From the NCBI GenBank assembly GCA_023954495.1, contig JAMLIA010000030.1, forward strand, positions 1 through 34,135: a DNA stretch of 34,135 nt, given 5' to 3'. Both the position numbers and the translations under genes were made by a program. The notes beneath the pieces were generated by a model. It ran no database searches. It was not told where the DNA came from and worked only from the letters and a program-made list of their open reading frames with translations. Shown one piece after another: positions 1 to 34,135 of the stretch. This stretch comes from Thermomicrobiales bacterium. GTDB lineage: Bacteria > Chloroflexota > Chloroflexia > Thermomicrobiales > CFX8. Numbering within the stretch: position 1 is the stretch's first letter; every line of letters begins with the position of its first letter.

Positions 1-51
1 CCGCGCGATTTATGATTCGAGCGTGGAGATGGCCCCGAGGAGAGGATGTGC

Positions 52-783: not shown

Positions 784-854
784 AAGCGCAGGGTACCCGG
801 AGTGGAGACCGGTCGCGACGCCATCCGCCGCGCGTTGACGGGCGCTGGGCGCGC

Positions 855-882
855 GAGCCGACCGCTCTAGCCCGGTCGGCTC
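855..882. terminator. Hairpin between convergent genes, overlaps regulator stop codon
   Basis: A perfect 10-bp stem (GAGCCGACCG / CGGTCGGCTC) with an 8-base loop lies between the B3/B4 gene and the convergent regulator. The TAG stop of the regulator reading frame (867-869 on the minus strand) falls inside the loop. No clear U-tract follows on either side, so this is a plausible bidirectional transcript-end hairpin rather than a textbook intrinsic terminator. Confidence 0.45.
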
Positions 883-3716: not shown

Positions 3717-3882
3717 AGGGGACTCCCAGAACGCGGTAGCAACATAGCGAATATGCAAGCAAGTGCGCTCACCATATCACGACACGACCGTGCTCAAGCA
3801 ATCTGAATGAACTGACACCACTTTTGCGTCCCAGTCGCACTCCGGTCGCCTGGCGGATGCAGTCGCCGGTCATGCTGGGAGC

Positions 3883-4151
3883 ATGAACGGACGAAATCGA
3901 CATTCGGGAGATCAGCGGCGGCGCGACCCCAGCGCCATGCGTTTCTGCTCACGCTCTGGCAGGAGCAGGCAGACAGGCCGTGGCGAAAGCGGCCTTGCGT
4001 CCCGCCGATGGTGGCGAGCGTCAGGGGTTTGCGGCGATCGAGCATCTTGCCGCCTATCTGCCGCCTCACCACGCCGGATGCAGCGGACGAAGGCGTACCG
4101 CATCAGATGCGCGGATGCGCCGTCCTGGAGAACGATGCCGGGCCGGCGTAA
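3883..4151 (+). pseudogene. Small (~90 aa) conserved-looking hypothetical protein, frameshifted
   Basis: Between the regulator and the first beta-helix gene, the plus strand carries a small coding remnant that switches frame twice. The readable pieces are HAFLLTLWQEQADRPWR (from about 3936), then AALRPADGGERQGFAAIEHLAAYL (from about 3986), then RLTTPDAADEGVPHQ to a TAA at 4149-4151. The order (hydrophobic strand with a Trp, a charged turn, then a helix ending in LAAYL) recalls very short Chloroflexota proteins of the form 'F-LW-E---WR--L----GE---F--L--L--YL'. That match is from memory and no function is known. The start is uncertain: ATG 3883 is the nearest candidate but is in a different frame from the first clear piece. 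Its end lies 33 bases before the beta-helix start, so the two may be co-transcribed. Confidence 0.4.
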
Positions 4152-4184
4152 GACACCGGCAGCAACGACGGAAGGTGCAGGGAG

Positions 4185-6543: not shown

Positions 6544-6563
6544 GCAACGCGGCATACAACCGC

Positions 6564-6604
6564 CCGCAGCGGGGTTCTGTTCGTCACCCAGCGCCCTGCT
6601 GCGG
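6564..6604 (+). terminator. Hairpin after beta-helix gene 1
   Basis: An 11-bp stem, CCGCAGCGGGG against CCCTGCTGCGG with one imperfect pair, begins about 20 bases after the stop codon. There is no strong U-tract. It is best read as a candidate terminator separating beta-helix genes 1 and 2. Confidence 0.4.
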
Positions 6605-6640
6605 AACGACATACGCCGGTAAATGGTGATTGAAAGGGAT

Positions 6641-9312: not shown

Positions 9313-9430
9313 GAGGAAGCGTTGCTCTCCTGACGATGATCGCCCCAGTAACGGTCATGGCCAGGACCTCCACACAGAACGACGGCGGTCGAGCTGCTCG
9401 TGCCGTCATCTATCCGGCAACGCTCAGGTG

Positions 9431-11112
9431 TCAGAATCCCATCGCCGCGCCGCCGGAGCGCGGATCCGCGCCACCGCGTAGCGTGCCGGTCGCCGGATCG
9501 CGTCACGGCCTGAACGAGCGCGAAGTTGCCGTACGGTGCCGGGTTCGGGACGAGCTGGAAGCCACGTTCGGCAAGCTCGCTCTTCACCCAGGTCGGGATA
9601 CGCGACTCGCAATCCAGCAGATCGCCCTGGCAATCGAAGCGCGGCGCTGAAACTGCCTCGACCGGCGACGGGCGTGGTCGAGCACATTCAGCAGCACCGC
9701 CGCCGGTGATGATCCGCGTGCCGCCCGGCGCGCCGAGCGCCGAGTACCAGCTCGCCGTCGCGCAGGACGATCGTCGGGCACATGCCGGTGATGCGCGACT
9801 TCCTGGCGCGATCGAGTTCGGTAGCCCGGCTGCAGGTTCGCCGCGTTCATGATGTTGTTCCAGGTGAAGCCGTAGCCCGGGGAGACGACGCCGCTGCTCG
9901 CGCCGAGCGAGTGCGTCAGCGCGATCGCGTTGCCGGCGTCATCAACGACGGTGACGTTCGTCGTCGTCGGCGCTTCCGGGTAGCGCGGCACGCTGAACTG
10001 CTCGCCAGCCTTGATCCTGGCGTACCACTCGCCGGCCCGTTCGTCCGACAGCAGCATATAGCCGGCACATCGTGGAAGCGCCGCGGGTCGGCGACGTGAC
10101 CGTACCAGTCGGCGTAGGCCGCCTTCATCGCGTGGCCAACGAGGTCGATGTACTCGACGCTGTTCAGGCCCAGCGCTGCGATGTCTTCATGCTCGACGAT
10201 CTTCAGCGTCTCGGCCATGCAGATACCGCCGCCGGCCGGTGGGTTCGTCAGGACGGTCTGGCCGCGATAGCTGATCCGGATCGGCTCCGAGACGTGGACC
10301 GTGTAGTTCGCCAGGTCTTCAGCCGTGACGTACGAGCCATTATCGGTCAGGTCGGCAGCCAGCTCGCGCGCTAGTGCGCCCTCGTAGAACTCGCGCGGCC
10401 CACCCTCGGCCAGACGCTGGAGCGTGCGTGTGTGATCCGGGTTCATCAGCCGCTCGCCTGGAGCCATGTAGCCGGAGCCGTCCGCCTTCGTGTAGATCGC
10501 GCGTGACGCCTCGGTCGCGCGAATGCGCTCGCCGAACGCGATGTGCAGACCATAGCCCGGCGTATTCCACAACCGCCAGAGCTCGGGCGTGACGACGTAG
10601 CCCTCGTCGGAGATACGGATCGCGTCGCGCAACGCGTCCTGCCAGGTGATCGTGCCGAAGCGCTCCAGCAGCTCGGCCATCCCGGCCACCGTGCCGGGCG
10701 TCATGATCGAGCCGTAGCCAATGTCGTTGACCTGCCCTTTGAGGTGATAGCCGTAGCCGGTCCAGTCCTGCTCGATAACGATGTCCTGCCACATCGCGGG
10801 CGTCGCCTTCGATCCGGCTGTGCCGTTGAAGTCGATGCAGATTTCGGTGCCATCGGCGTGCGGACCGTCGCGCCCGAAGCCGCCGATCCCGCACATCTGC
10901 GGATCGACGACCATCTGCACAAACGCCGCGGTCACGGCTGCGTCGATGGCATTCCCACCGGAGCGCAGAACGCCGACCCCCGATTCGACCGCCGGTATCT
11001 GCGGCGCGACGACCATCCCACCCATGCTCGGCTCCTCCCCATGCAGCGCAATGAAATCCGGCCACGTTGTCGTCCATGGCCGGATGATCACCGATCGTGA
11101 GGTATCGGGCAA
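9431..11112 (-). pseudogene. ggt: Gamma-glutamyltransferase family protein, frameshifted near its end
   Basis: This is an Ntn-hydrolase family enzyme of roughly 560 residues that transfers or hydrolyses gamma-glutamyl groups, for example from glutathione. The first 350 residues are in one clean frame: GGMVVAPQIPAVESGVGVLRSGGNAIDAAVTAAFVQMVVDPQMCGIGG, YGSIMTPGTVAGMAELLERFG, and LTNPPAGGGICMAETLKI. A frame change near 10060 is followed by NVTVVDDAGNAIALTHSLGASSGV, which carries the autocleavage site. The first Thr of the T-T-N motif (codon 9962-9964) aligns with the catalytic Thr of E. coli Ggt, where the motif is T-T-H. Two or three further shifts lead to the canonical end TGTLRGGADPRSGGAAMGF, with stop at 9431-9433. 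It starts 10 bases after the binding-protein gene, so the two are probably one operon. No signal peptide is evident in the called start, so location is unclear. Confidence 0.85.
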
Positions 11113-16856: not shown

Positions 16857-17059
16857 CTTCCGCTTATTGAAGCGAAATGTCCGTGCCTCTCCGTCAGTCG
16901 ACAGCAACGTTGAAACCGGGTTGCGTCTGCGACGCATGCAGCGCGATAGACCAGGCGGACGCACGTCACAACGATCGTCTGGAGGAGGAGTCGAAGGGAG
17001 TTGAGACAACCGCAGTCCTGTTTCATCTGAACAGTTGATATGTACCGAAGGGTTCATTG

Positions 17060-19003
17060 ATGGATTCCAAGGATCGATTGCTTGACGAGCTCGTTAGTGA
17101 GCTCGGCGTCAAGCGCCTGAAGCGGCGCGATGTTCTGAAGCGCGGCCTCGCGCTGGGCCTGAGCGCGCCGGTCATTGCCGGTCTGCTGGCCGCCTGCGGC
17201 GGCGATGACGACGAGACTGATACGCCAGCCGCGACCGCTGATACTGGTGGCAGTGCGACTGAACCGGCCGGTGAGACGCCGGAAGCCGAAGCCACCGAAG
17301 GCGAGACTGAGGGCGATTCAACACCCGAGGCCGAAGCGACCGAAGCCGAAACCGGCAGCGGTGGTGGCCGTGGACAGGGCGACCTGCTGCGCCTGCTCGT
17401 CTGGCAGGCCCCGACCATCCTCAACACGCACTTCTCGCAGGGTGACAAGGACGGCCTCGCCGCCCGCCTCATCCTTGAGCCGCTTGCCAACCTCAACTCC
17501 GACGGCACGCTGGATCCAGTGCTGGCCGAGGAAATCCCGACCCTGGAAAACGGCGGCGTCGCTGCCGACGGTATGAGCGTCACCTGGAAGCTCAAGCCGG
17601 ACGTGGTCTGGTCGGACGGCGAGCCGTTCACCGCTGCGGACGTCGAGTTCACCTGGCAGTACGCGACCAACATTGATGTTGCTGCGACGACGTTCGCCAA
17701 CTACGACACCATTTCGGAAGTCGAAGTCGTTGACGACCACACAGTGACCTTCAAGTACGCCGAGCCGAACCCGGCCTGGTTCACCGCCTTCGCCGGCTCA
17801 TTCAATGGCTCAGTGCTGCCGAAGCACATCCTCGCTGACGTCCTCGGCGCGGAAGCCCGCAACGCGCCGTTCAACCTGAACCCGATCGGTACCGGCCCGT
17901 ACAAGCTCAAAGAATTCCGCCCGGGCGATACCGTCCTCTACGAGATGAACGAGAACTTCCGCAACCCGGACAAGCCGTTCTTCCCGGAGGTCGAGCTCAA
18001 GGGTGGCGGCGACGCGACTGCTGCGGCCCGTGCCGTGCTGCAGTCCGGCGAGACCGACTACTCCTGGAACCTCCAGATCGAGAAGGCTGTCGCCGAGCAG
18101 ATGGCCGCCAACGCCTCAACCGGCGTGCTGGTTGCCACACCGGGCAATAGTGTCGAGCAGCTGCTGCTGAATTTCGCTGACCCGAACACCGAGGTCGACG
18201 GCGCGCGTTCCGAGCCGTCCACCGAGCACCCGATCTTCAAGGACAAGCCGGTCCGCGACGCGCTCCGTGTGTCGTCGGACCGCGAGACGATCGCCACGGA
18301 GCTGTATGGTGACGCCGGCTCACCGACGCCGAACACGCTCGTCGCCCCGACATCCTTCGACTCGCCGAACACCTCGATGGAGTACGACCTCGACAAGGCC
18401 GCATCCCTCCTCGAAGAGGCCGGCTGGGTGCTGGACGGCAGCACTCGCAAGAAGGACGGCAAGGAGCTCGCGCTCTCGTACATGACGACCGTCAATCCGG
18501 TCCGTCAGAAGACGCAGGAGATCCTCAAGCAGTCCTGGGAGCAGATCGGTATTTCGGTTGAGCTTCGTGCGATCGATTCCGGCGTCTTCTTCTCGTCGGA
18601 CGCCGGCAACCCGGACACGATCTCCCACTTCTACGCTGACATCGGCATGTTCACCAACGGCCCGGTCAGCCCGTATCCGCTGGATTACATGTCCGGCTTC
18701 AAGTCGAACGAGCCGGAGACGGACCTCGCTCAGCAGTCCAACCAGTGGTCTGGCAACAACTACAACCGCTGGGTCAATGAGGACTACAACAAGCTGTGGC
18801 TGCAGGCCAAGACCGAACTCGATCCGGACACGCAGCAGGAGCTGTTCATTGGTATGAACGACCTGGTCGTGAACGAGGTTGTCCGCATCGGCCTCGTCCA
18901 CCGCAACGGCCTCACCGGCTTCTCAAACCGGATCAAGGGCCACGTCGATTCCTCCTGGGAGATGGAGGTCTACGACATCGAGAACTGGTACGCGGAGGAG
19001 TAA
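17060..19003 (+). CDS. ABC transporter substrate-binding lipoprotein, family 5 (oligopeptide/nickel type)
   Basis: This is an intact 647-residue extracytoplasmic solute-binding protein of the SBP_bac_5 family. The N-terminus has a Tat-like twin-arginine stretch, KRRDVLKRG (Arg22-Arg23), then a hydrophobic run ending in the lipobox LAAC (Cys46). A Thr/Glu/Ala-rich linker follows (about 47-105). The binding domain shows LTW-type landmarks: LARLILEPLANLNSDGTLDPVLAEEIPTLE-like start, VTWKLKPDVVWSDGEPFTAADVEFTWQY, IGTGPYKLKEFRPGDTVLYEMNENF, and PVRDALRVSSDRETIATELYGDAG. It probably captures peptides or similar solutes at the outer face of the membrane for import. ATG 17060 is chosen over the preceding TTG because GAAGGG lies seven bases upstream. 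No permease or ATPase gene is in the window, so it is an orphan here. Codon quality is clean, unlike most neighbours. Confidence 0.93.
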   Translation: MDSKDRLLDELVSELGVKRLKRRDVLKRGLALGLSAPVIAGLLAACGGDDDETDTPAATADTGGSATEPAGETPEAEATEGETEGDSTPEAEATEAETGSGGGRGQGDLLRLLVWQAPTILNTHFSQGDKDGLAARLILEPLANLNSDGTLDPVLAEEIPTLENGGVAADGMSVTWKLKPDVVWSDGEPFTAADVEFTWQYATNIDVAATTFANYDTISEVEVVDDHTVTFKYAEPNPAWFTAFAGSFNGSVLPKHILADVLGAEARNAPFNLNPIGTGPYKLKEFRPGDTVLYEMNENFRNPDKPFFPEVELKGGGDATAAARAVLQSGETDYSWNLQIEKAVAEQMAANASTGVLVATPGNSVEQLLLNFADPNTEVDGARSEPSTEHPIFKDKPVRDALRVSSDRETIATELYGDAGSPTPNTLVAPTSFDSPNTSMEYDLDKAASLLEEAGWVLDGSTRKKDGKELALSYMTTVNPVRQKTQEILKQSWEQIGISVELRAIDSGVFFSSDAGNPDTISHFYADIGMFTNGPVSPYPLDYMSGFKSNEPETDLAQQSNQWSGNNYNRWVNEDYNKLWLQAKTELDPDTQQELFIGMNDLVVNEVVRIGLVHRNGLTGFSNRIKGHVDSSWEMEVYDIENWYAEE

Positions 19004-20174: not shown

Positions 20175-20396
20175 CCAAATGTGAGGGGCGTATCGCATAC
20201 GCCCGGCTAGAACGCCACATACGCGGCCATCCAGTAGGTTCGCCGGAGCATTGTGGCTGCCGGTTGAGCGGGTCGAGGGCCAAACGGGCGTATGCGATAC
20301 GTGGCCATCCAGCAGGTTCACCCCCGGACACCGTGGCTGCCGATCGGAACGGGTCGAGGGCCAAACGGGCGTATGCGATACGCCCCTACATTTTGG
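20175..20396. repeat. MITE/REP-like inverted-repeat element 1 with internal tandem repeat
   Basis: This is a 222-bp element bounded by about 30-bp terminal inverted repeats (20175-20204 and 20367-20396; 26 of 30 identical without gaps). Each end contains a core palindrome GGGCGTAT-CGC-ATACGCCC. A third, degraded copy of the core lies at 20286-20304. The interior is two tandem copies of a roughly 85-bp unit (about 20217-20300 and 20301-20384), both containing GGCCATCCAG, TGGCTGCCG and GGGTCGAGGGCCAAACGG. No transposase is encoded. Such GTAGGGGCGTATCGCATACGCCC-type sequences are, from memory, dispersed in Chloroflexota genomes. Confidence 0.7.
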
Positions 20397-20488: not shown

Positions 20489-20682
20489 ACGTTGTCAATG
20501 TCAAGTCGTCAGATCGGCAGCCTGCCCCGTCCTCTGTCATTTCACGCCCGGAGGGCACCCGCGCAGCCGAGAAATCTCTCCTGCGTTGGACTGAGTCGAA
20601 CGGATGGGAGATCTCTCACTGTGGTTCGAGATGACAGGCTAAAGGGTAGGTTACCGATTGGACAACTCGACATTGACAATGT
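20489..20682. repeat. MITE-like inverted-repeat element 2
   Basis: This is a 194-bp element with imperfect 55-bp terminal inverted repeats (20489-20543 and 20628-20682; 41 of 55 positions match). The outermost TTGTCAATGTC is the best conserved part. The interior contains GAGAAATCTCTC and GGGAGATCTCTCAC stretches flanked by TGTCAT / ATGACA, which resembles the 'TGTCATTTCGAGCG…GAGAAATCTC' interspersed repeats known from many bacterial genomes. It carries no gene and would be mobilised only in trans. Confidence 0.65.
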
Positions 20683-21467: not shown

Positions 21468-23900
21468 TCAGTTGTTCAGGATGCGATCCATGACGCGGCT
21501 GAGTGCGTCGACCGCCGCCAGTGCCTCTGCACCGGCCTGCTCGATCGTCATCGCGCGCCCCTCGACAACGGCGCGACCGAGTACCTCGGGCGGCAGCAGC
21601 GCCTGCAGTGTGGCAAGCGTGTCTTCGGCGTCGGTGCGCTGCATCGTCTCCACAACCGAGTTCAGCGCGCTGCGAATCGACTGCCCCGCTCCGTGGGCGG
21701 CGTGCATCGTTTGCACCGCGCCGAGGAGGCGGGCGACCCGTTCCGGCTGCTCGGCGGCAACCAACGTCGCGATCTGCCAGAGGCTGACGAGCAGAAACGC
21801 CTGATCGCCGACAGCGAGGTGGCCGATCAGGCCAGCGCGGAGGCACTGTCTGGCGAGCTTGATCTCGCCGAGTCGACGCAGTACTTCCCCGAGCAACGTG
21901 TTGGCAATGGCGATGTAGCGCGGATTCCCCAGCGCGATGTAACGCGCGAGGCTGTCTTCAAAACACGCCCGGCTTGTCGTCAGGTCGTTGACGTTGGCGG
22001 TGGCGAGACCGAAGCTCAACAGCGCCAGTGCGATCGCAGGCTGGTCGTTGATCGGGCGTGCAACCTCCAGCGCGCGATTGAGCGCATCGATCGCGCCGTC
22101 CGTATCGCCCCGCCGCCAGAGAATCGTGCTGAGCCACGAAAGTGCCTCGCTCAGCGTCGACCCATCGCCGATCTCACTCGCCAGCGCCATCGTCGCTTCC
22201 AGGATCTCGATGGCGACATCGAGGTCCAGTTGCCAGATTGCCAGATCGCCAGATCGCAGCAGCACTCTGGCGCGCAGGTTCGGCGTGATCGTCGCCGCGC
22301 TGGGCAGCGCCTGCATCGCTTCCAGCCAGCGGCGGCCCTCGCCAGTGTGCCCACGGATTGACCAGAACGGAGAGAGTGCCACCGCCATGCGCAGCCCGCT
22401 CTGTGCGTCGTCATGCTCGGCGAAGCGGCGCAGGGCCGTGCGGATATTGTCCTGATCGCGGTCGAGTCGCTGCAGCCAGTCGATCTGCTGCGGGCCTTCC
22501 AGATCCTCAGCCGCCTGCTCGGCAAGCGCCCGGAACGCATCTGCATGCCGCGCCGCAACCGTCTCGACTTCGCCGTTGGCAGCCAGTCGATCTGCAGCGA
22601 AGAGCCGGACCGGCTCCAGCAGCCGATAGCGAGCGACCGCGCCGCCGTCCTCGACCTGCACGAGCGATTTGTCGACGAGCTGCGCCATCAGGCCGAGGAT
22701 GACCGGCCCGGGCAGGTCGTCGCCATGGCAGACCGCCTCAACCACCTCACGGTCCGCACCGCCACGGAAGACGGACAGCCGCTCGAACAGGCGTTGCTCC
22801 TGCGTTTGCAGCAGGCGGTAGCGCCATTCGAGCGCGGCCAGCAGCGTCTGCTGGCGGCCGCGATTCGTGCGGCTGCCACCGGGCACGATCGTGATCATGT
22901 CGGCCAGCCGGGCCGCGACCTGCTCGACCTTCAGCACACGCACCCACGACGCCGCCAGCTCGATCGCCAGCGGGATGCCCTCCAGCCGGACGCAGATGTC
23001 GGCAACCGCAGCGGCGTTCTCGTCAGTCAGCTGGAAGTGCGCGTCAACGCCTTGCGCGCGCTCGACAAACAGCCGCACCGCCGCGACACTCGCGATCTGC
23101 TCGGCGCTGATCGTCGTTTCCATCGGCGGCACAGCCAGCGGCGCGAGCCGCCAGATCTGCTCTCCGGCGATGTGAAACGGCTCGCGGCTGGTGGCGATCA
23201 GGCTGAGCGTTGGGCAACCGGCAAGCAATCTGCGCAGCAGCTCGGCACAGGTGTCGGTCAGGTGTTCGCAGTTGTCGAGGATGAGCAGTGCGTGGCGCTG
23301 CTGGAGGAAGCCGACCAACCGATCAATCAGTTGCTCGCCCAGCACTTCGCGAACACCGCAGATCTCGGCGACCGCCCGCGCGACATCGGCCGGGTCATCA
23401 ATCGGAGCCAGCCTGACGAACCAGACACCATCGGGGAACGTCGGGCCGACCTCGGACGCCAGTTGGAGCGCCAGGCGGGTCTTTCCCATCCCGGCCAATC
23501 CCGTCAGCGTCGTCAGTCGGCTGGACGTTGGGCGGCTGATCCGGGTTCGCAGGCTGGCCAGATCGTCTGCGCGGCCGATCAGCGGTGATGGTGGGACGGG
23601 CGGGTGCGCGCCACTCGCTGGCGCAGGTGCTGGTTGCGGCGGTGTGGCCTCGGCGCTGGGCGGACGTGTGGCGGTATTCAGGAACTGATCGCGATCGACA
23701 TCGTCAAGCTCCAGTCCATCGGCAAGCTGGCGGGCGGTATATGGGTAGGGACGTCCGCGCACGCCGCGCTCCAGCGCGCTGATCGCCGAGACGGTCAAGC
23801 CCGAGCGTTCGGCTAGCTCGGGCTGGCTCAGGCCAAGTCGACGGCGAAAGAACCGGAGGAGTTCGCCAAACGTGGCCCCGGGCGCTGCTCGATCGTGCAT
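21468..23900 (-). CDS. XRE-HTH / STAND ATPase / TPR transcriptional regulator A
   Basis: This is an intact 810-residue regulator. An XRE-type helix-turn-helix occupies residues 12-66 (FGELLRFFRRRLGLSQPELAERSGLTVSAISALERG). A Pro/Ala-rich linker leads to a STAND/NB-ARC ATPase with PLIGRADDL, Walker A GLAGMGKT (134-141), Walker B LLILDN (205-210) and the TSRE sensor (237-240). A winged-helix segment (ALEWRYRLLQTQEQRLFERLSVFRGG) and TPR-like helices follow to the end. Proteins of this design are ATP- or ligand-gated activators. ATG 23900 is chosen over upstream in-frame starts because the HTH begins right after it and AGGAGA lies 10 bases upstream. It is head-to-head with beta-helix gene 3, 255 bases away, and is the best candidate to control it. 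It is the only one of the three STAND regulators here without frameshifts. Confidence 0.92.
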   Translation of the reverse strand: MHDRAAPGATFGELLRFFRRRLGLSQPELAERSGLTVSAISALERGVRGRPYPYTARQLADGLELDDVDRDQFLNTATRPPSAEATPPQPAPAPASGAHPPVPPSPLIGRADDLASLRTRISRPTSSRLTTLTGLAGMGKTRLALQLASEVGPTFPDGVWFVRLAPIDDPADVARAVAEICGVREVLGEQLIDRLVGFLQQRHALLILDNCEHLTDTCAELLRRLLAGCPTLSLIATSREPFHIAGEQIWRLAPLAVPPMETTISAEQIASVAAVRLFVERAQGVDAHFQLTDENAAAVADICVRLEGIPLAIELAASWVRVLKVEQVAARLADMITIVPGGSRTNRGRQQTLLAALEWRYRLLQTQEQRLFERLSVFRGGADREVVEAVCHGDDLPGPVILGLMAQLVDKSLVQVEDGGAVARYRLLEPVRLFAADRLAANGEVETVAARHADAFRALAEQAAEDLEGPQQIDWLQRLDRDQDNIRTALRRFAEHDDAQSGLRMAVALSPFWSIRGHTGEGRRWLEAMQALPSAATITPNLRARVLLRSGDLAIWQLDLDVAIEILEATMALASEIGDGSTLSEALSWLSTILWRRGDTDGAIDALNRALEVARPINDQPAIALALLSFGLATANVNDLTTSRACFEDSLARYIALGNPRYIAIANTLLGEVLRRLGEIKLARQCLRAGLIGHLAVGDQAFLLVSLWQIATLVAAEQPERVARLLGAVQTMHAAHGAGQSIRSALNSVVETMQRTDAEDTLATLQALLPPEVLGRAVVEGRAMTIEQAGAEALAAVDALSRVMDRILNN

Positions 23901-23917
23901 CTGGCGCCCGTCTCCTA

Positions 23918-23967
23918 TCCAAAGTGTGCGGCAAGTGTGCGGGTTCCGTGCGGGTTCCGTCCGTTCC
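23918..23967. promoter_or_regulatory. Conserved GTGCGG-iterated block, copy 1
   Basis: This 50-base block between regulator A and beta-helix gene 3 matches 26171-26220 at 48 positions. It contains three phased units: AGTGTGCGGCA, AGTGTGCGGGT and CCGTGCGGGT. A single related unit, AGTGTGCGAGT, lies at 32740-32750 in front of regulator B. Conservation outside a gene suggests an operator for the STAND regulators, although recent duplication could also explain it. Confidence 0.5.
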
Positions 23968-24017
23968 GCTCGTCTGGGAAGCGTCAGATACTTGCGGTAT
24001 CGACCGGGCAAGCGGTT

Positions 24018-24060
24018 TCGCACGCGATGCCCAGATGATAGCGCAATGTTTCACCGCTGC
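24018..24060. promoter_or_regulatory. Conserved divergent control block, copy 1
   Basis: This 43-base block matches 32813-32855 at 38 positions, including the run CCCAGATGATAGCGCAATG. In both places it lies 106-118 bases from the regulator start and 91-96 bases from the beta-helix start. On the minus strand it contains TATCAT, a possible -10. It is probably part of a shared bidirectional promoter. Confidence 0.5.
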
Positions 24061-24155
24061 GTCATGCACCGGGCGTCTTCTTGCGCCCTTGTCATCTCTG
24101 TTGCTCCGGTTGGCGTGTATTCGTGGTTTGAATCTGTCCGTGGAAAGGAAACGGT

Positions 24156-26097
24156 ATGTCACGAAGAGTCCTTCGGATCGTCCTGACGCTGGGGATGATG
24201 CTGGCCACATTCAGCTGGGCCGCACTTCCGGCGGCTGCGGCGTCCACGATCCCGGTCTGTCCGACCGATCAGGCCGCGCTGGAAGCGGCTATTGCCAGTG
24301 CCGGGAGTGGCGGCACGGTGCTATTCACCTGCGATACGGCACTCACACTGACCAGCACAATCGCACTGGCCGATGTGACGCTCGATGGCAACGGCTTTGA
24401 CGTCACGCTCGACGGCAACGACGCCGTGCGCATCTTCACTGTATCCGGCACCGTCTCACTGGCTGGCCTGAAGCTGGTCAATGGCGACTCTGGGCAGAAC
24501 CAGTATGGTGGCGCGATCAATGCAGCTTCCGGAAGTGTCCTGACGGTGACGGGCAGTGTGTTCGATGGGAATAGAGCTGATCGGGACGGCGGTGCAGTTT
24601 ACGCTTCCAACGCCACGCTCACAATCACTGGCAGCACACTGAGCGGCAACACGGGCTCTTGGGGTGGTGCGATTGCAGCTGCTAATACCGCAATCACAAT
24701 CACGGGCAGCACACTGAGTGGCAACACAGCGATCGATACGGGCGGTGCAATCAACTTTGATGGTGGGAGCATCACCATCGCGAATAGCACGCTGACGGGC
24801 AACACCGCAGACGTTGGCGGAGCGATCAGAGTCAATGGCGACGTGACGCTGCTCAATAGCACGTTCTACGGAAACCAGGCGACGTGGGGTTACGGCGACG
24901 GCTACAAGTACGGTAACAGCCTGTACTTCCCCAGTGGCTCCACATTCACCATGACGAACACCATCATGGTCAGCTCCACAAAAGGTGAGTGCGCCACCGA
25001 TGGCGGAATCAACCCGGTTGACAACGGCGGCAATCTTCTGACCGACGACTCCTGTGCATCAAATGACTATCACTACGACCCGATCGGCACTGTCGTCACC
25101 CTTGCCGACCTCGACCTCGGCGCGCTGGCTGACAACGGCGGCCCGACGCAGACCATCGCGCTCGGCGAGAACTCGGTCGCCATCGGTGCTGGCGTCCTGG
25201 CGGCCTGTGCCGCAGCCCCGGTCAACGGCCTCGACCAGCGCGGCTACACTCGCCCGACGACGACCTGCGATAGCGGCGCGTTCGACAGCGGTGCAGCCGC
25301 TCCGGACAGCACCGCGCCGGTCATCACGCCGACGGTGAACGGCACGCTCGGCGCGAACGACTGGTACACCAGCGACGTCGCTGTCTCGTGGAGCGTCGTC
25401 GATGACGAGTCGGCCATCAGCGCCTCGACTGGCTGCGAAGCGACGACGGTTACCACAGACACCACCGGCACGACCTTCACCTGCGAGGCGACCAGCGCTG
25501 GCGGCACCAGCACAGTCCGCCAGATCACGTTACGCCACCGCACCAGCAGTCAGCGTCACCGGCATCGCCGATGGAGCGGTCTACACGCTCGGCGATACGA
25601 TCCCGACGGTTGGTTGCACGACGGATGACGCCACCTCTGGTGTCGCGACACAGGCCACCGTCAGTACGACAGGCGGACCGGTCGGCGAGATGACCGTCAC
25701 CTGCTCCGGTGCAACGGACAACGCGGGCAATACCGCATCAGCCTCGATCACGTACGCGGTGCACTACGACTGGGAGGGCTTCAGCGGACTGGTCAAGAAC
25801 CAGCCGAAGGCGACCACCTGGATCGCCCTGCTGCCGGTCCCGGTCATGTTCACCATCGACGGCAACCAGGGACGCGACGCCATCACCAGCATCACCTCCC
25901 GGAGTTGCAGCAACGCACCGGGTGTTGGTGAGGTCAGCGCCGGGTCACTGTTCAACATCGGTGTGGTCAGCCTGGGACGCACTGACCAGTACCTGTTCAT
26001 CTGGACGACGCCACGCTCGTGGGCACGTACGTGCCGCGTGCTGACCGTCACGCTGGCCGACGGCACAAGCCACGAAGCGACGTTCAACTTCCGTTAG
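24156..26097 (+). CDS. Secreted beta-helix (choice-of-anchor Q) / Ig-like protein 3, one frameshift
   Basis: This is a 650-residue exported protein. The signal peptide MSRRVLRIVLTLGMMLATFSWAALPAAAAS is followed by a beta-helix whose rungs repeat the pattern 'TLTITGSTLSGNT…GGAI' (about 35-270). The Q-domain end is LGALADNGGPTQTIALGENSVAIGAG…GLDQRGYTRPTTTCDSGAFD. Next is an Ig-like repeat (APVITPTVNGTLGANDWYTSDVAVSWSVVDDESAIS), a second sandwich segment (VSVTGIADGAVYTLGDTIPTVGCTTDDATSG), and a C-terminal module, WIALLPVPVMFTIDGNQGRDAITSITSRSC…SWARTCRVLTVTLADGTSHEATFNFR. A single frame change lies between about 25520 and 25545; each side is clean (24156-25540 and 25545-26097). AAAGGAA precedes the ATG. 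No LPXTG motif, transmembrane tail or S-layer motif is seen. It is head-to-head with regulator A. Confidence 0.85.
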
Positions 26098-26120
26098 ATA
26101 ACCATCGCCCTCTACGCACC

Positions 26121-26152
26121 CACTGGCCGGCGTCGATCGACACCGGCCAGTG
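26121..26152. terminator. 32-bp near-perfect palindrome after beta-helix gene 3
   Basis: CACTGGCCGG and CCGGCCAGTG flank an inner GTCGATCGAC palindrome, giving a 32-bp inverted repeat with one mismatched pair, 24 bases after the stop codon. It has no U-tract. A strong RNA hairpin is expected, and the most likely role is ending or protecting the gene 3 transcript. Confidence 0.5.
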
Positions 26153-26170
26153 GCCTTAGATTGATCGGTG

Positions 26171-26220
26171 TCCAAAGTGTGCGGCAAGCGTGCGGGTTCT
26201 GTGCGGGTTCCGTCCGTTCC
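26171..26220. promoter_or_regulatory. Conserved GTGCGG-iterated block, copy 2
   Basis: Second copy of the block at 23918-23967, with two differences in 50 bases. Here no regulator gene lies alongside. It sits 167 bases before beta-helix gene 4, as if a regulator-proximal control region had been duplicated without the regulator. Confidence 0.5.
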
Positions 26221-26386
26221 CGCGCAGGCTGAATCACGACAGACTTCTGTCATTGACCGGAGCGTTCGTTGAATCGCCGCTGCCCGTGTGGGAGGTGCTG
26301 CGTGTTGCGCGGCCCGACTGGCGGCCGAACGTCAGGTGGTGTGGTGCGTGGTGTTGGAGAGCAGCGTGGAACGACAGGGTGCAGGC

Positions 26387-29300
26387 ATGATCAAACGGCT
26401 TGGACGCACCATCCTCGTGCTGGGGATGGTGCTGACGACATTCAGCTGGTTAGTACCGTCGGCATCGGCGGACGGAGCAACCGTGCCGGTCTGTCCGGCA
26501 GACGAGATGGCGGTGCGGGCCGCTCTGATCGCAGCACGTTATGGCGGCACGGTGTTGTTTACATGCGATGCGCATATCACGTTGGCCGACAAGCTCTTGC
26601 TGGGCGATGTGACTATCGATGGCAACGGCTTCGACGTGACGATCGACGGCAACAACGCCGTAGGTGTCTTCTCCGTCTTCGGCACGGTGTCGCTGATCGG
26701 TCTGCACATCGTCAATGGCTTTGGCAGTACCGCTGGCGCGATCTACGCGGATAAGAACAGTACGCTAAGGATCGCTAACAGCACGTTGAGTGGTAATCAT
26801 GTATTGTCGCATGGTGGAGCTATCTTTGCTTCAGGTGGCTCCATAACCATCGTTGACAGCACCATAAGCGATAACGTCGCCAAAGAGATCACGCCAACCG
26901 GCGGCCAATACGGTTATGGAGGTGCCATCTTCGGTAGTGGGACACTGGTCATCGATCGCAGTACGATCAACAATAATGTCTCGATGAATGGTGGGGCCAT
27001 CCTCGGATCCTTCTCCCGGCTGAGCATCTCCAATAGCACCTTGAGTGGCAATAGTGCCGACATCGGAGGCGCTATCAAGATCGGTTTGAGTTCATCAGTT
27101 CTGGAGATCACCAATAGCACGCTCGCGGGAAATAGCGCCAGATACGGCAGCACCATCATGTTCGACGCAGCCGCGACCCTGAATGCAACCAACAGTATCT
27201 TCGCTGGAGGAGGGCCAAGCACCACCTGTGTATTTCCCTACGCGCCGACGGTCAATGACCTGGGCGGCAACTTGGCGAACGACTCGTCATGTGGCATCGG
27301 TACCTTCGCCAGCCTGGCAAACCTCAAGCTCGGCCCACTTGCCGACAACGGTGGCCCAACGCAGACAATCGCGCTCGGGAACGGCTCAGTTGCTATCGGC
27401 GCGGGCGACTCGGATGTCTGCAACGCCGATCCGATCAACGGCGTTGACCAGCGCGGCTCTGCCCGTCTGACGATGACGTGTGACAGTGGCGCGTTCGATA
27501 CAGGCACGCCTCCAGACACCACCGCCCCGACGATCACCCCGACGATCAGCGGGACGCTTGGTGAGAGCGGCTGGTACACCAGTGACGTTGATGTCTCGTG
27601 GAGTGTCGTTGATGCCGAATCGACCGTCAGTTCTCAACCGGCTGCGAAGCGACGACGATAACGGAGGACACCACCGGCACGACCTACACTTGTGAGGGCC
27701 ACCAGTGCTGGCGGGAGCAGCAGCGAATCCGTCACGATCAAGCGCGACGCGACAGCTCCGGTCGTCAGTGTCACCGGCGTCAGCGACGGCGCGTCATATG
27801 TTGCTGGCTCCGTTCCGAAGCTGATTGCAGCACAAACCGACGCAGACGGTGGCTCTCGGTGAGAACTCGGTCGCCATCGGCGCAGGCGTATCAGCAGCCT
27901 GTAACGCTGACCCGGTCAACGGCCTTGACCAGCGTGGTTATATCCGTCAGACGACGACCTGCGACAGCGGCGCATATGACAGCACTGCGGACTTTGTCGA
28001 CACGACCGGCCCGGTCATCACCCCGACCGTCAGCGGTACCTAAGGTGCAAATGGCTGGTATACCAGTGACGTGACAGTGACCTGGAGCGTTATCGACGAG
28101 TCGACCATCATATCCTCAACCGGCTGCAACGCCACGACAGTCACCGCGGACACTATCGGCACGACACTGACCTGCGAGGCGACCAGTGAGGGCGGCACCA
28201 GCAGCCAGTCGGTCACGTTCAAGCGTGATGCCACCCCGCCGACGGTCTTGTATTTTGGTCCGAGCGATGGATCGTCCTATCTTCCTGGTACTGTTCCCGA
28301 GGCGGGTTGCACAACGCTAGACGCACTCTCTGGCGTCGCAACCAACGCAACGCTCTCGACGAGTGGAGGTCCCAGCGGCTCTATTACCGTTACCTGCTCA
28401 GGCGCAACGGACAACGCCGGGAACACTGCGGCAGCGGTCTCCGTCACCTACAACATCGTCGACACCACAGCGCCGAGCATCACCTACATCTTCGACACCA
28501 ACGGCACCGTGCCGGTCAACGGGTGGTACGGCAATAATCTCACGCTCACCTGGGTCGTTACTGAACCGGAATCGCCGGATACCCTTGTTCTGGATGGTTG
28601 TGAAGATCAGATCATCACCGGCGATCTACCGATCACGACCTTCAGTTGTTCGGCAACATCTGCGGGTGGCACAGCCGGACCGGTCACGATCACCTTTGGG
28701 AACGACAAAACTGCGCCCGATATGACATTCACGGGCCTGACTGCCGACGCGATCTATCCACTGAGTGCGGTGCCGGTGCCGGTTTGCGAGGCGACCGACG
28801 CGACCTCCGGTATGGCCGACGGCTTCCCAACGCTGACCTATGACGGCGGGCCGCTCGGAACGGTGGTGGCAATCTGTTCCGCTAAAGACGTCTACGGCAA
28901 CACACGGCAGATAGGTGTGCACTACACCGTCATTGATGACACTGCCCCGGTGATCACGCCGACCCTCGACCCGGCAACGCCCGACGCTGCCAACGGCTGG
29001 TACAGCAGCGACATCACGGTCAGTTGGACCGTCGAAGACGAGTCTCCCATCAGCGCCTCGGCTGGCTGCGACACCACAACGCTTGACACCGACACCACCG
29101 GCGCGACGCTCACCTGCGAAGCGACCAGTGCTGGTGGCACGAGCAGCCAGTCGGTCACGATCAAGCGCGACGCGACGGCACCGGTCGTCAGCGTCACCGG
29201 CGTGGCAGATGGTGCGTCGTACGTCGCCGGTTCCGTCCCGGCAGCAGGCTGCACGACAGTTGACGCCACATCTGGCGTTGCCACCGACGCGACGCTTTTA

Positions 29301-30224
29301 GCACCAGCGGTGGGCCGCTCGGACCGATCACCGCGACCTGCGCCGGAGCAACGGACAACGCCGGTAACACCGGTAGCGTGTCCGTGACGTATACCGTCAC
29401 GGACAGCAGCGCACCGATCATCGGCTACACGCTCGATCCCGCCACGCCTGATGGCGCGAACGGCTGGTACAGCGGAACAGTCACGCCTGCCACCTGGACC
29501 GTGACTGAGCCGGAAACGCCTGACACGCTGTCGCAGGTCGGCTGCGCGAACCAGACCATCACCGCCGATCAGGCCGAGACGACCTACCCTGCTCGGCCAC
29601 CTCCGGCGGTGCTGCAGCACAGGTCGATGTCACCATCGGTCGCGACGCCACCGCCCCGGTAGTGAGCGTCACGGGCATCGCCGATGGCGCGGTCTACACG
29701 CTCGGCGACGTGATCCCAGCCGTCGGCTGCACGACGACCGACGCCACCTCCGGTGTCGCGACACAGGCCACCGTCAGCACGACAGGCGGACCGGTCGGCG
29801 ACATCGTCACCTGCGCTGGTGCGACGGACAACGCGGGCAACACAGCGGCAGCAGCCTCGGCGACCTACTCCGTGCAGTATGACTGGAATGGCTTCAGCGG
29901 CGTGGTGAAGAACCAGCCGAAGGCGACCACCTGATCGCCCCTGCTGCCGGTGCCGGTCCTGTTCTCGATCGATGGCAACCAGGGACGCGACGCCGTTACC
30001 AGCATCACCTCGCGCAGTTGAAAGTAACGCACCGGGTGTTGGTGAAGTCAGTGCCGGATCGTTGTTCAACATTGGCGTCGTCAGTCTGGGACGGACTGAC
30101 CAGTACCTGTTCATCTGGACGACGCCGCGCTCGTGGGCACGCACCTGCCGGGTGCTGACGGTCACGCTGGCCGACGGCACTTCGCACGAAGCGACGTTCA
30201 ACTCGCCAGCGAAGGAGGAACTAG
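26387..30224 (+). pseudogene. Giant secreted beta-helix / multi-Ig protein 4, frameshifted and chimeric
   Basis: This is a protein of about 1,270 residues. The signal peptide MIKRLGRTILVLGMVLTTFSWLVPSASAD and the beta-helix (rungs such as TLRIANSTLSGNHVLSHGGAI and SISNSTLSGNSADIGGAI) run cleanly to the Q-domain end at about 27500. An Ig-like repeat follows, then an abrupt jump at about 27838 into a second Q-domain end (PTQTVALGENSVAIGAGVSAACNADPVNGLDQRGY). About five more Ig-like repeats follow (28071-29390 is a clean frame), and then the conserved C-terminal module with PVLFSIDGNQGRD and SWARTCRVLTVTLADGTSHEATFN. Breaks lie near 27640, 27700, 28042 (TAA), 29300, 29590, 29815, 29933 and 30022. 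The last codons are uncertain. The long repeat stalk suggests a surface-exposed or matrix protein. The start has only a weak ribosome site. Confidence 0.75.
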
Positions 30225-30247
30225 CCCTATTCGTTCGCACGAACCCG

Positions 30248-30288
30248 GAACCGCGGCCGATGTCACCGACGCTGGCCGCGGTTCGTTG
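30248..30288. terminator. Hairpin between convergent beta-helix gene 4 and regulator B
   Basis: A perfect 11-bp stem, GAACCGCGGCC / GGCCGCGGTTC, with a 15-base loop lies between the two convergent gene ends. GTTGTA follows on the plus side. It is a likely shared terminator. Confidence 0.6.
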
Positions 30289-30304
30289 TATCCGGCGGCG
30301 ATCG

Positions 30305-32707
30305 TCAGTGAACCGTTGGCAAGTCAGGGTCGGCAGCGAGCATGGCGGATGCCGATCGAGCGCGGCCATCGCCGTCGATTGCGCCTGCTCGATCGTGAGC
30401 ATGTAGCCGCTGGATATGGCGGCGTCGATCCGCGCCGACGAGAGCTGGCGCCGAATCGTGGAGATCGTCGCCTCGTTCGTGCGCTCCCCGAGCAGGTCAG
30501 CCTTCGCCTTGAGTGTCTCCCGTAGGGTGTAGGAGGCTCCAATGAGTTGGGCCGCATCTTCCGGCTGACGTTCGGCGATGAGTGACGCGACCATACGCAG
30601 GTTGCTGCTGTGAAGGCCCGGTCGCCGACCGCGCCAGCCCCGGCCAGTCCTCGCGGAACAAGTCTGCGGCCCGCGTGTAATCGGTGGCGACGTTTGCCGC
30701 CCCGCCGCGCATCGTCGCGACGAGATGGCGACGAACCGCGTGTTGCCCAGCGATCTCATAGCCAGGCTGTCGTCGAGCGCCGCCAGCCCGCTCGCCAGCT
30801 CCTCGGCGTAAACGAGCGTGACTCCGAGATTCAGCAGGCCAAACGCGATGACCTGCCGGTCGTCCAGTCGCTGTGCGATTGCCAGCCCCGCTTCAGTTAC
30901 ATCCGCGGCTGCGCGGATGTCGCCCCCGCCGCTTGACGATGCCGAGCCGATCAGCGCTTCGGCCAGCGTGCGTTGGTCGTCGAGCTGCTCCGCCAGTCGG
31001 CAGCACGCGTTCAGCGTCTCCAGCGCCTCGTCCAGCAGCGCCTTCGCCGCTCGCGCCAGCTCGCCGCTACGCAGCAGCCCCGCCATGCGCAGCGGCAGCG
31101 GTACCGACTCGTCGCGCCGCGCCAGCAACGGGTTCAGCCGACGGCCCTCGCTGAGATAGCTGCGCACCGACCAGAACGGCGCAAGCGCGACCGCCAGCCG
31201 CAGCCCCTCGGTCGTCATATCGCCGTCGCTGAGCCAGCGCGCGGCGTGCATGTTCTCGGTATCGCGATCCAGCTTCAGCAGCCAGTCGACCTGCCCGCCA
31301 TTCAGCTCCGGCGCGCTGCGGAGCGCCAGCGCCGTGAAGGCGGCGGCGTGTCGGGCAGCGACGATGTGCCGATCTCCCGATGCCGCGAGTCGTTCGTCGG
31401 CGAACAGCCGCACCGGCTCCAGCAGGTATTAGCAGCGTTACCGGACCGCTACGATCAACCTGAATCAATGACTGATCCACCAGTTGCGGCAGCAGCCCGA
31501 GTACCTGCCTGACTGGCAGATCGTTGCCGGCGCAGACCGCCTCGGCAGACTCAAGGTCGCAGCCGCCGCGGAAGATCGCCAGGCGCTCGAACAACCGTTG
31601 CTCCGGGGCGCTGAGCAGCGAGTAGCCCACTCCAGCGCTGCCTGCACCGACTGATGGCGGCTGGGTGTGCCGGTCCGTTTGCCCGATCTTCGGACAGCAC
31701 GTCCGCCAGGCGCGTCGTGACCTGCTCGATGCTCAACACCCGCAGCAGCGCCGCCGTCAGCTCGATCGCCAGCGGCACGCCCGAGAGGCGGACGCAGATG
31801 TCAGCGATGGCGTCCGCGTTGTGCTCAGTCAGCTCGAACTGCGGCACGATGACCTCGGCTCGATTGACGAACAGCTGAATCGCCGGGATGGCGGCTAGTT
31901 GCTCCAATCGTCAGTGCGCGGTCGGTTTGTGGGGTCTCAAGCGGATGAATGCGCCAGATCTGCTCCCCGGCGATGTGGAGCGGGGTACGGCTGGTCGCGA
32001 TGATACGGAGACAGCAGGCGCGAGCAGCCATCGGCCAGCTCCGCGCAGCCGCTGAGGACGTGCTCGCAGTTGTCCAGCACAAGCAGCGCGTGGCGCGATC
32101 CCAGGAAGGCGATGATGCGTTCGACGAGCGGTTCGTCCGGCGCCTCGCGCAGATCCAGCGTGAGTGCCACGACTGTCGCCACCTGCTCGGCTTCATCGAG
32201 CGGCGCAAGCTGGACAAACCAGATGCCGTCCGGAAAATCCGTTGCGGCTTCCATGGCCAGATGCAAGCGCCAGCCGCGTCTTGCCGATCCCGGCAAAGCC
32301 GGCCAGCGTGAGCAAGCGCTTGTCGGTTGGCGCGCTCAACCTGGCACGTAGTGCGGCCATCTCGCTCGAACGCCCAATGAGCGGCGTCGCCGGTACGCTG
32401 ACCGCGCCACGTGCCGATGTCACGACCGTGCCAGGGTCTCGGGTCGCCCCGGCTCCGGCTCGACGATGCGCGCCTGTTGCGCCGAGCCGAGCAGGTCGGC
32501 GCGTTCGCTGCCGGTCAGGTTCAGTCCGTCAGCGAGCTGCCGCAAAAGGATGGGCACTGATGCGTGCGAATGCCGCGTTCCAGCGCGCTGATCGCCGAGG
32601 CCGTCAGCCCGCGCGATCCGCAAGCTCAACCTGCGGAGCCCGGCACGGCGGCGGTAGTGACGAAGGAGTTGCCCAAATGTGAGCGGCGATGCTGACTCTC
32701 TGGGCAT
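30305..32707 (-). pseudogene. XRE-HTH / STAND ATPase / TPR transcriptional regulator B, frameshifted
   Basis: This is a paralogue of regulator A with the same domain order and length (about 800 residues). ATG 32707 starts MPRESASPLTFGQLLRHYRRRAGL, an XRE HTH that shifts frame inside the recognition region and resumes as LLRQLADGLNLTGSERADLLG. The ATPase carries PLIGRSSEMAALRARL, Walker A GFAGIGKT (about 32300-32277), FPDGIWFVQLAPLDEAEQVATVV, and Walker B LLVLDN (about 32086-32069). Further pieces are VPLAIELTAALLRVLSIEQVTTRLADVL, GYSLLSAPEQRLFERLAIFRGG, and a long C-terminal TPR-like piece (from about 31413) ending MLTIEQAQSTAMAALDRH. The end is ambiguous between two frames; 30305 gives a natural stop, and reading on in the other frame only translates the antisense of gene 4. 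It is head-to-head with beta-helix gene 5, 238 bases away. Confidence 0.8.
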
Positions 32708-32812
32708 CGTGCGCCCATCTCCCGACTGAATGTATAACCAGTGTGCGAGTATTGACCGTTCTATCGCACCGGTGAATTCCAGACACTATCTGTAGTGATC
32801 TGACTGGCGTTG

Positions 32813-32855
32813 TCGCACGCGACACCCAGATGATAGCGCAATGGCTCACTGCTGC
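32813..32855. promoter_or_regulatory. Conserved divergent control block, copy 2
   Basis: Second copy of the block at 24018-24060 (38 of 43 identical), in the same relative position between regulator B and beta-helix gene 5. The gene-proximal sequence after it is not conserved until the ribosome-binding site. Confidence 0.5.
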
Positions 32856-32945
32856 TTCCGGCAGCGGGTGGAATCGTGTACCTTCGTACAGGAAAATCCC
32901 GGCTGACGCTGATTCTGTTTGTCCTCATCCTGGAAGGGAAAGACT

Positions 32946-34135
32946 ATGTCAAGGAAAGTCCTCCGGATCATGCTGACGCTGGGCATGACCCTGGCGACAT
33001 TCACCTGGGCCGCGCTGCCAGCGCAGGCGGCAGGCACGGTTCTGTTCTGTCCGTCAAACCAGGCCATGCTGGAAGCTGCCATCGGTGCTGCCGGCCCCGG
33101 CGGCACGATGCTGTTCAGTTGCAACACGAGCATCACGCTGACGAGCACGATCGCGCTGGCCGACGTCACGCTCGATGGCAACGGCTTTGACGTCACGCTC
33201 GACGGTAACGACGCCGTGCGCATCTTCACTGTGTCCGGTACCGTGTCGCTGATCGGCCTGCACCTGACCCATGGCTTCTCTAGTGCATACCTGGATGGCG
33301 GCGCAATCTATGCAGCTTCTGGCAGCGTTCTGACCGTGACGAGCAGCGTCCTTGATGAGAATCATGCTGACTATAGTGGTGGTGCGATCTACGGATACAA
33401 CGTGACGACGACCATCGTCGACAGTACGCTGAATGGCAACTCCGTCCAGCAACTGTATGGCGGCGCGCTTTCCATCAGCGGTTCGCTCACGATCTATGGG
33501 AGCACACTGAGCAATAACTCTTCAGGCTGGGCAGCTGGTGCGATCGACTTTAGTGGTGAACAAGTCAGCTTGACCAACAGCACGCTGACTGGGAACACCG
33601 CTGGCGCTGGCGGCGCAATGCTTGCCAACGGCGACGTGACGCTGACCAATAGCACGTTCTACGGAAACCAGGCGACGTGGGGTTATCGCGACGACTACAT
33701 GTACGGAAACAGCCTGCTCTTCCCCACCTCTGGCTCCACACTCACCATGACGAACACCATCATGGTGAGCTACACAAAGGGCGAGTGCGCCGTCGATAGT
33801 AGTAATGGAATCAACCCGATTGACAACGGCGGGAATCTTCTGAGCGACGATTCCTGTGCATCAAATGATTCACATGTCAACCCGATCGGTACTCAGATCA
33901 ATCTCACCGACCTCGACGTCGACGCGCTGGCTGACAACGGCGGCCCGACGCAGACTCTTGCCCTCGGCGAGAACTCGGTCGCCATCGGTGCTGGCGTCCT
34001 TGCGGCCTGTGCCGCAGCCCCGGTCAACGGCCTCGATCAGCGCGGCTACACCCGCCCGACGACGACCTGCGATAGCGGCGCGTTCGACAGCGGAGCGATT
34101 GCGCCGGACAGCACCGCGCCGGTCATCACGCCGAC
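32946..34135 (+). CDS. Secreted beta-helix (choice-of-anchor Q) protein 5, cut by window end
   Basis: This reading frame is open without interruption from ATG 32946 to the window edge (396 codons). The start follows GGAAGGGAAA. The signal peptide is MSRKVLRIMLTLGMTLATFTWAALPAQAAG. Beta-helix rungs follow (TLTSTIALADVTLDGNGFDVTLDG, LTVTSSVLDENHADYSGGAIYG, LTNSTLTGNTAGAGGAML, VTLTNSTFYGNQATWGY). The Q-domain end, LADNGGPTQTLALGENSVAIGAG…GLDQRGYTRPTTTCDSGAFDSG, is complete, and an Ig-like repeat begins (DSTAPVITPT) at the edge. It is the closest paralogue of protein 3, with long nearly identical DNA stretches, and is expected to continue into Ig-like repeats and the conserved C-terminal module. 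It is head-to-head with regulator B. Confidence 0.9.
   Translation, partial: MSRKVLRIMLTLGMTLATFTWAALPAQAAGTVLFCPSNQAMLEAAIGAAGPGGTMLFSCNTSITLTSTIALADVTLDGNGFDVTLDGNDAVRIFTVSGTVSLIGLHLTHGFSSAYLDGGAIYAASGSVLTVTSSVLDENHADYSGGAIYGYNVTTTIVDSTLNGNSVQQLYGGALSISGSLTIYGSTLSNNSSGWAAGAIDFSGEQVSLTNSTLTGNTAGAGGAMLANGDVTLTNSTFYGNQATWGYRDDYMYGNSLLFPTSGSTLTMTNTIMVSYTKGECAVDSSNGINPIDNGGNLLSDDSCASNDSHVNPIGTQINLTDLDVDALADNGGPTQTLALGENSVAIGAGVLAACAAAPVNGLDQRGYTRPTTTCDSGAFDSGAIAPDSTAPVITP

Follow-up and report, generated by a model that had tools for sequence, protein, structure and literature searches.

Here we describe a 34,135-nucleotide stretch of DNA from a bacterium of the order Thermomicrobiales (the window: GenBank contig JAMLIA010000030.1, which is contig C30 of the 3.36-Mb, 152-contig genome GCA_023954495.1). 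It carries genes for STAND-type regulators, each placed head to head with genes for probably secreted beta-helix proteins (hereafter exoproteins). Four such cassettes belong to one neighbourhood: three lie in the window (units 1, A and B) and one on contig C83 (unit 83) (Table 1). Units 1, 83 and A include two exoprotein genes each, and unit B is interrupted by the contig end. The first-pass annotation had proposed two like-oriented pairs, each of a minus-strand regulator and a plus-strand beta-helix gene. These are units A and B, whose genes and domains were confirmed and which align over 3 kb (22360-25333 with 31169-34135) with 69.7% of nucleotides identical; such 3-kb duplications are confirmed as unambiguous and far beyond chance. 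The far diverged third pair (867-3716 with 4185; unit 1) is also present. The SARP label given to its regulator was unconfirmed, the only trace being a Trans_reg_C match (E 0.012) in the frame-broken N terminus of the C83 copy.

Table 1 Features of the window, with positions, strands and supporting remarks
Feature	Position	Strand	Remarks
B3/4-domain gene	46-783	+	Pfam; matches in G001 (contig C185) and C83; conserved flank, shared by unit 1 and the duplicate on C83
reg1, unit 1 STAND-TPR regulator	867-3716	-	Multi-frame; duplicate partner of reg83 on C83
BH1 and BH2, unit 1 exoprotein genes	4185-9330	+	Mosaic of the two C83 copies
Gamma-glutamyltranspeptidase (GGT) gene	9438-11112	-	Pfam; far flank of the cassette insertion; adjoins the B3/4 gene in G001
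regA, XRE(HTH_31)-STAND NTPase-TPR	21468-23900	-	810 aa, intact
Putative operator array	23926-23968		11-bp direct repeats; shuffle test and genome pattern search
Promoter-proximal block with CCCAGATGATAGCGCAATG	24012-24073	+	82% identical to 32807-32868 (blastn, pattern search)
bhA exoprotein	24156-26091	+	One frame break near 25530
Second operator-array copy, upstream of bhC	26179-26216		50 bp, 96% identity with the regA-bhA copy
bhC, second exoprotein of unit A	~26387-30205	+	Architecture as bhA; several frame breaks in the assembly
regB, regA paralogue	30305-32707	-	~45% identity to regA; can be read only by joining several frames
Promoter-proximal block, second copy	32807-32868	+	blastn, pattern search
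bhB, unit B exoprotein	32946-34135	+	Open to the contig end; 73% amino acid identity to bhA

The C83 unit duplicates unit 1 from the B3/4 gene through the regulator to both exoproteins (window 33-9394 with C83 4286-13250). The proposed expansion by segmental duplication therefore holds within A-B and within 1-83, but not for all units from one recent pair, because regulators of the A/B and 1/83 types are only ~26-34% identical and lie in different parts of the regulator tree. In that tree, built like the exoprotein tree from merged frames, regA joins regB and reg1 joins reg83 (support 1.00 each), and the two types are not sisters. The exoprotein tree unites bhA and bhB (0.999), with bhC and C2 next, and places BH1, BH83a, BH83b and BH2 together (1.00). 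Both trees thus pair A with B and 1 with 83, an outcome that supports the proposed co-phylogeny of regulators and partners and is a weak test with its four pairs.

RegA is best read from ATG 23900, the start that fits the family, although an open reading frame from GTG 24023 also exists. Pfam assigns it an N-terminal helix-turn-helix (HTH) domain of the XRE type (HTH_31, E 1.3e-11), an AAA/NB-ARC-like P-loop NTPase with Walker A (GLAGMGKT) and Walker B (ALLILDN) motifs (matches to AAA_22, AAA_16 and NACHT), and, after the NTPase, a helical-repeat sensor (TPR_12, E 4e-14); in the AlphaFold2 model the C-terminal half is all-helical. That model has a pLDDT (predicted local distance difference test) score of 85.7, and its top Foldseek match is the STAND-TPR protein 6mfv, with Apaf-1-like proteins matching too. 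The NTPase is homologous to the NOD of AfsR (profile E 1.5e-34). The RegA N terminus lacks the SARP domain (ODB and BTA) and has HTH_31 instead. RegA thus has the sequence and fold of a STAND regulator, for which ligand-triggered ATP exchange and oligomerization are predicted. The STAND class is kin to molecular switches that act in apoptosis in animals and in immunity in plants.

The nearest relatives of regA and regB (clade support 1.00) are one gene on contig C25 of the source genome and two (G004a and G004b) from a genome of the same family, G004. All three have a C-terminal LuxR domain instead of XRE and adjoin secreted-type genes: glycine-rich ALK_LTK and Big_13 genes at C25, beta-helix genes in G004. 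These three loci suggest that the sensor half follows the exoproteins and the DNA-binding half is exchanged. Apart from the cassette genes, nothing in the genome is closer to regA than the C25 regulator, and three co-directional ALK_LTK genes, one with Big_13, follow it (L041:2-7284). On contig C219 of G004 (L064-L065), two LuxR-type STAND regulators are embedded among many tandem genes for beta-helix and FG-GAP exoproteins.

The exoproteins share one architecture: an N-terminal beta-helix, a choice-of-anchor Q domain (NF041518), immunoglobulin (Ig)-like repeats and a C-terminal PxKF domain (NF038114). NF041518 is found in bhA and bhB at E 4e-15 and 3e-14, and its scores of 55.9, 52.9 and 58.1 bits exceed the cut-off of 25. 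A hydrophobic, signal-like stretch at the N terminus was judged by eye, and the proteins are probably secreted. AlphaFold2 predicts a confident beta-solenoid over residues ~31-240, for which the best solved Foldseek match, rhombotarget A (9cdv), is weak (E 1e-3, TM 0.50). Rhombotarget A and choice-of-anchor Q/PMP-repeat exoproteins resemble the proteins described here in beta-helix, choice-of-anchor Q and PxKF end. The ratio of non-synonymous to synonymous substitution rates is 0.36 between bhA and bhB and 0.16-0.22 in the PxKF region, which is consistent with moderate constraint. Within units 1 and 83 identity is mosaic. BH1 reaches 0.98 to BH83a near its start, runs mostly at 0.91-0.99 to BH83b in the middle and reaches 1.00 to BH83a at its end; BH2 matches BH83b at 0.98-0.99 where it begins and at 0.81-0.97 where it ends.

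The intergenic region between regA and bhA contains an array of four heptamers, GTGCGGC-aagt-GTGCGGG-ttcc-GTGCGGG-ttcc-GTCCGTT, placed every 11 bp by 4-nt spacers. Its repeat score at lag 11 was matched by none of 1,000 shuffles, and the 11-bp spacing is significant both here and at the second copy upstream of bhC. These are exactly the two sites that the array pattern finds in the 3.36-Mb genome at up to three mismatches; a reversed control pattern matched nowhere in the genome at that threshold. The cognate link between regulator and exoprotein, as first proposed, is in this respect upheld for regA, whose operator-like array lies at both exoprotein genes, bhA and bhC, and is otherwise absent from the genome. 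On the regA strand the repeats of the array are GGAACCCGCAC, by its sequence a variant of the family element described below. The conserved block with CCCAGATGATAGCGCAATG was considered as the operator and rejected, being present only in units A and B and more promoter-like.

We examined the same spacing in regions upstream of XRE-STAND-TPR genes across the order, in a discovery set of 36 and a hold-out set of 24 fetched afterwards (60 in total). Using a shuffle-normalized repeat score, the discovery set gave a Stouffer Z of 4.9 at lag 11 and 5.0 at lag 12, and the hold-out set 6.1 and 3.5, with other lags at or below 2.5. Upstream regions of other genes scored -0.5 at lag 11; at lag 12, codon periodicity inflates the score. 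The family core is CCCACGCA, which was picked while viewing both sets, such that the true hold-out applies to the spacing result only. On the regulator strand, CCCAC pairs 11 or 12 bp apart occur in 15 of the 60 regions against 0.17 expected, and none occurs on the opposite strand. When CCACG is included, CCCACGCA-type pairs are found in 19 of 60 regions against 2 of 259 controls. Among 24 STAND relatives without the XRE domain, none has CCCACGCA-type repeats. CCCAC arrays accompany 17 of ~37 regulators whose recognition helix is R(G/A)xSDLERG-like and 2 of 17 others (P 0.016, with a hand-made, post hoc grouping). Across the order, the gene upstream is divergently oriented for 25 of 30 XRE-type regulators, as against 94 of 263 other genes (P 6e-7, a count that relied on a simple gene caller).

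With moderate confidence, we interpret the cassettes as local, autoregulated STAND switches that oligomerize on helically phased operators, RegA controlling bhA and bhC. The array would be the exact candidate operator for RegA. regA and bhA are divergently oriented, and the 11-bp period of the heptamers places all of them on one face of the helix. Binding of a ligand by the TPR part would lead the NTPase to exchange nucleotide and the protein to oligomerize; the tandem HTHs could then bind the array cooperatively and so set transcription of regA itself, bhA and bhC. On this model the AfsR-type oligomerizing core would set the geometry of the operator, because RegA has such a core but another DNA-binding domain.

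Two characterized systems have a comparable geometry. In the PimR operator, 4-nt spacers separate three heptamers that follow each other at one helical turn, and binding is cooperative and on a single face; operators of this type lie in the regions between regulator genes that form pairs (PMC5930380). AfsR recognizes a pair of direct repeats of 11 bp (PMC10936776). PimR-type SARP-LAL regulators thus share the 7+4 arrangement of the array, to which binding by RegA is predicted, but differ in DNA-binding domain, in heptamer (CGGCAAG as against GTGCGGG or CCCACGCA) and in having antibiotic regulators as targets. AfsR, the SARP-NOD-TPR protein of Streptomyces (8jke, 8k60), is like RegA in its homologous NOD, its TPR C terminus and its 11-bp direct-repeat operator (putative in RegA), but carries SARP (ODB and BTA) in place of XRE (HTH_31) and recognizes a different operator sequence; regA is not in an antibiotic cluster. 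MalT and the LAL regulators also join a STAND switch to a helical-repeat sensor, a layout shared by the C25, G004a and G004b proteins, but have a C-terminal LuxR HTH, whereas RegA has an N-terminal HTH and no GerE domain. MalT boxes are direct repeats as well. The comparison suggests that two unrelated DNA-binding domains, joined to a shared oligomerizing core, make use of one operator geometry.

Several observations weigh against this interpretation. The regB-bhB intergenic region has no significant 11-bp array, units 1 and 83 have only weak ones (P 0.11-0.14), and the regA array departs from the CCCACGCA core of the family. The two array copies could partly derive from duplicated upstream DNA rather than selection, and the agreement of the trees rests on four pairs only. 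Nor was the pairing seen in the other genomes sampled. We surveyed 61 genomes of the order, of which 54, from every genus, have relatives of the regulators and 13 have relatives of the exoproteins, and none of the 13 exoprotein loci and 47 regulator loci fetched has both. A wider, species-wide collection of 80 exoprotein loci from across bacteria contains no head-to-head regulator pairing. Among these 80 loci a STAND gene lies near an exoprotein gene only in G004 (two overlapping loci) and, on the same strand, in the Chloroflexi contig L092, and more distantly in three others. The tandem arrays of G004 comprise ~25 exoprotein genes interspersed with two STAND genes of like orientation, and show no head-to-head pair. 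Enrichment of the pairing in other genomes, the check set beforehand, was thus not found, an outcome named in advance as refuting a widespread pairing. A conserved family of head-to-head cassettes is not supported, and what stands of that claim is smaller than first proposed. As far as sampled, the head-to-head pairing is special to the source genome.

These counts would also be expected if the locus were a duplicated chromosomal segment whose regulator and exoproteins are neighbours without a functional link. Relatives elsewhere are divergent from oxidases, enolase-like enzymes, transporters and a sigma factor, and three further paralogues in the source genome adjoin recX, SDR and MFS genes. 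We regard this explanation as unlikely. It does not account for the repetition of the array at bhC, which is not adjacent to regA, or for a family that is strongly divergent with upstream arrays, as local control predicts. Against it stand also the constrained codon pattern retained by both regulator pairs (reg1/reg83 and regA/regB) and the secreted-type neighbours of the closest, LuxR-type NOD-TPR relatives.

The state of the reading frames bears on two further explanations. Among the regulators only regA reads as one frame; in the assembly, reg1, reg83, regB, GGT, BH1, BH2 and bhC are each broken into several frames, as is bhA towards its end. Frame-breaking indels number 15 per kb between reg1 and reg83 (23% divergent) and 15.6 per kb between BH1 and BH83b (12% overall), where long near-identical runs are broken by gaps of 1-5 nt, and there are none in the neighbouring genes for a solute-binding protein (SBP), DinB and S15. 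This pattern is what a decaying island, with three of the four regulators and most exoproteins as pseudogenes, would produce, and we had at first adopted that status for reg1, reg83, regB and GGT. It was rejected after a codon-position test. Between reg1 and reg83 the substitution level is 0.40-0.43 at third codon positions, as against 0.11-0.12 at second positions; GGT compared with an intact orthologue from the genus-mate genome G001 has a third-position ratio of 4.35 and no nonsense change in 473 codons, and regA and regB have none in 673 aligned codons. Indel density is, moreover, equal in low-divergence and 23%-divergence stretches. BH1 and BH2 have a weaker codon-position bias and three nonsense changes, and may be partly relaxed, so that partial decay is possible for these two; for the island as a whole we give it little credence. 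Because the indels are independent of divergence and fall in genes that otherwise appear constrained, the likeliest reading is consensus errors left in parts of this metagenome-assembled genome (MAG), or else very recent breaks. Indel-rich patches (1-5 nt) lie beside clean genes at window positions 847-6000, 9438-11024 and 30305-32700, and annotation of this MAG will probably give false pseudogenes there. Surface variation, in which one exoprotein or a few would be expressed and a store of broken copies would donate segments by gene conversion, would fit the mosaic BH1 and BH2 and the many frame-broken copies, but is improbable given that the breaks look like consensus errors, that neither an expression site nor a recombination signal sequence was seen, and that recombination between tandem repeats is ordinary.

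Comparison with G001 provides a view of how the units may have arisen. Its gene order is S15, B3/4, GGT, with a B3/4-GGT gap of ~110 bp, a junction that by gene order is an empty site for a unit 1-type cassette. The source genome has single copies of S15 and GGT but two of B3/4, which fits tandem duplication of a segment comprising B3/4, regulator and two exoproteins and favours it over two co-binned strains, a source of the duplicated copies that retains a small residual probability. Bin contamination was rejected, because G001 has orthologues of the SBP and B3/4 genes at 77-82% and the tetranucleotide profiles are in agreement. In G001 the SBP and DinB genes are adjacent, and at the position of unit A they are followed by a small gene and one that we take, on our own reading of its sequence, to be glycoside-hydrolase-like; a GH15-like gene was considered as the distal boundary of units A and B and dropped for want of a close orthologue in the source genome. 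The cassette unit would thus have arisen and been duplicated in this lineage, with exoproteins recombining among themselves.

The cassettes are real and, as far as sampled, lineage-specific, and we consider the operator rule the more interesting result. To our knowledge, most bacterial STAND regulators have no known target site, and the collection of papers searched yielded nothing on this operator or regulator family. The rule of CCCACGCA-type repeats spaced by 11-12 bp beside divergent regulators could predict the targets of many uncharacterized ones. More tentatively, and with rather less confidence than for RegA itself, the XRE-STAND-TPR proteins of the order may form a very large family of like-working local switches, divergent and autoregulated, whose tandem HTHs bind helically phased CCCACGCA-type repeats by a SARP-like operator logic with an unrelated DNA-binding domain. 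Beside them, a NOD-TPR subclade would track exoprotein clusters across two genera with its DNA-binding domain swapped (N-terminal XRE or C-terminal LuxR), such that exoprotein sensing and not the promoter is conserved.

Other members of the family have different partners. Four face berberine-bridge FAD oxidases (L171, L178, L194 and L205) and two face enolase-like MR_MLE enzymes (L169 and L197), hinting at metabolic regulons. In G018, a well-assembled genome from a different family within the order, one XRE-STAND regulator, which has a CCCAC array, faces a surface-type protein with Ig, PKD and MBG domains (L211:5966-10719); this is an independent regulator-facing-exoprotein pair, and the exoprotein is unrelated. 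Elsewhere in the window, a search for RNA families and tRNAs found none, and 17057-19003 encodes a family-5 solute-binding protein that has numerous paralogues elsewhere in the genome (16 matches). Next to an 81-bp tandem repeat (20219-20383) lies a dispersed intergenic repeat, parts of it inverted, at 20496-20680; this dispersed repeat recurs at C83 4123-4244 and on several G001 contigs and looks like a small element of the repetitive extragenic palindrome (REP) or miniature inverted-repeat transposable element (MITE) kind.

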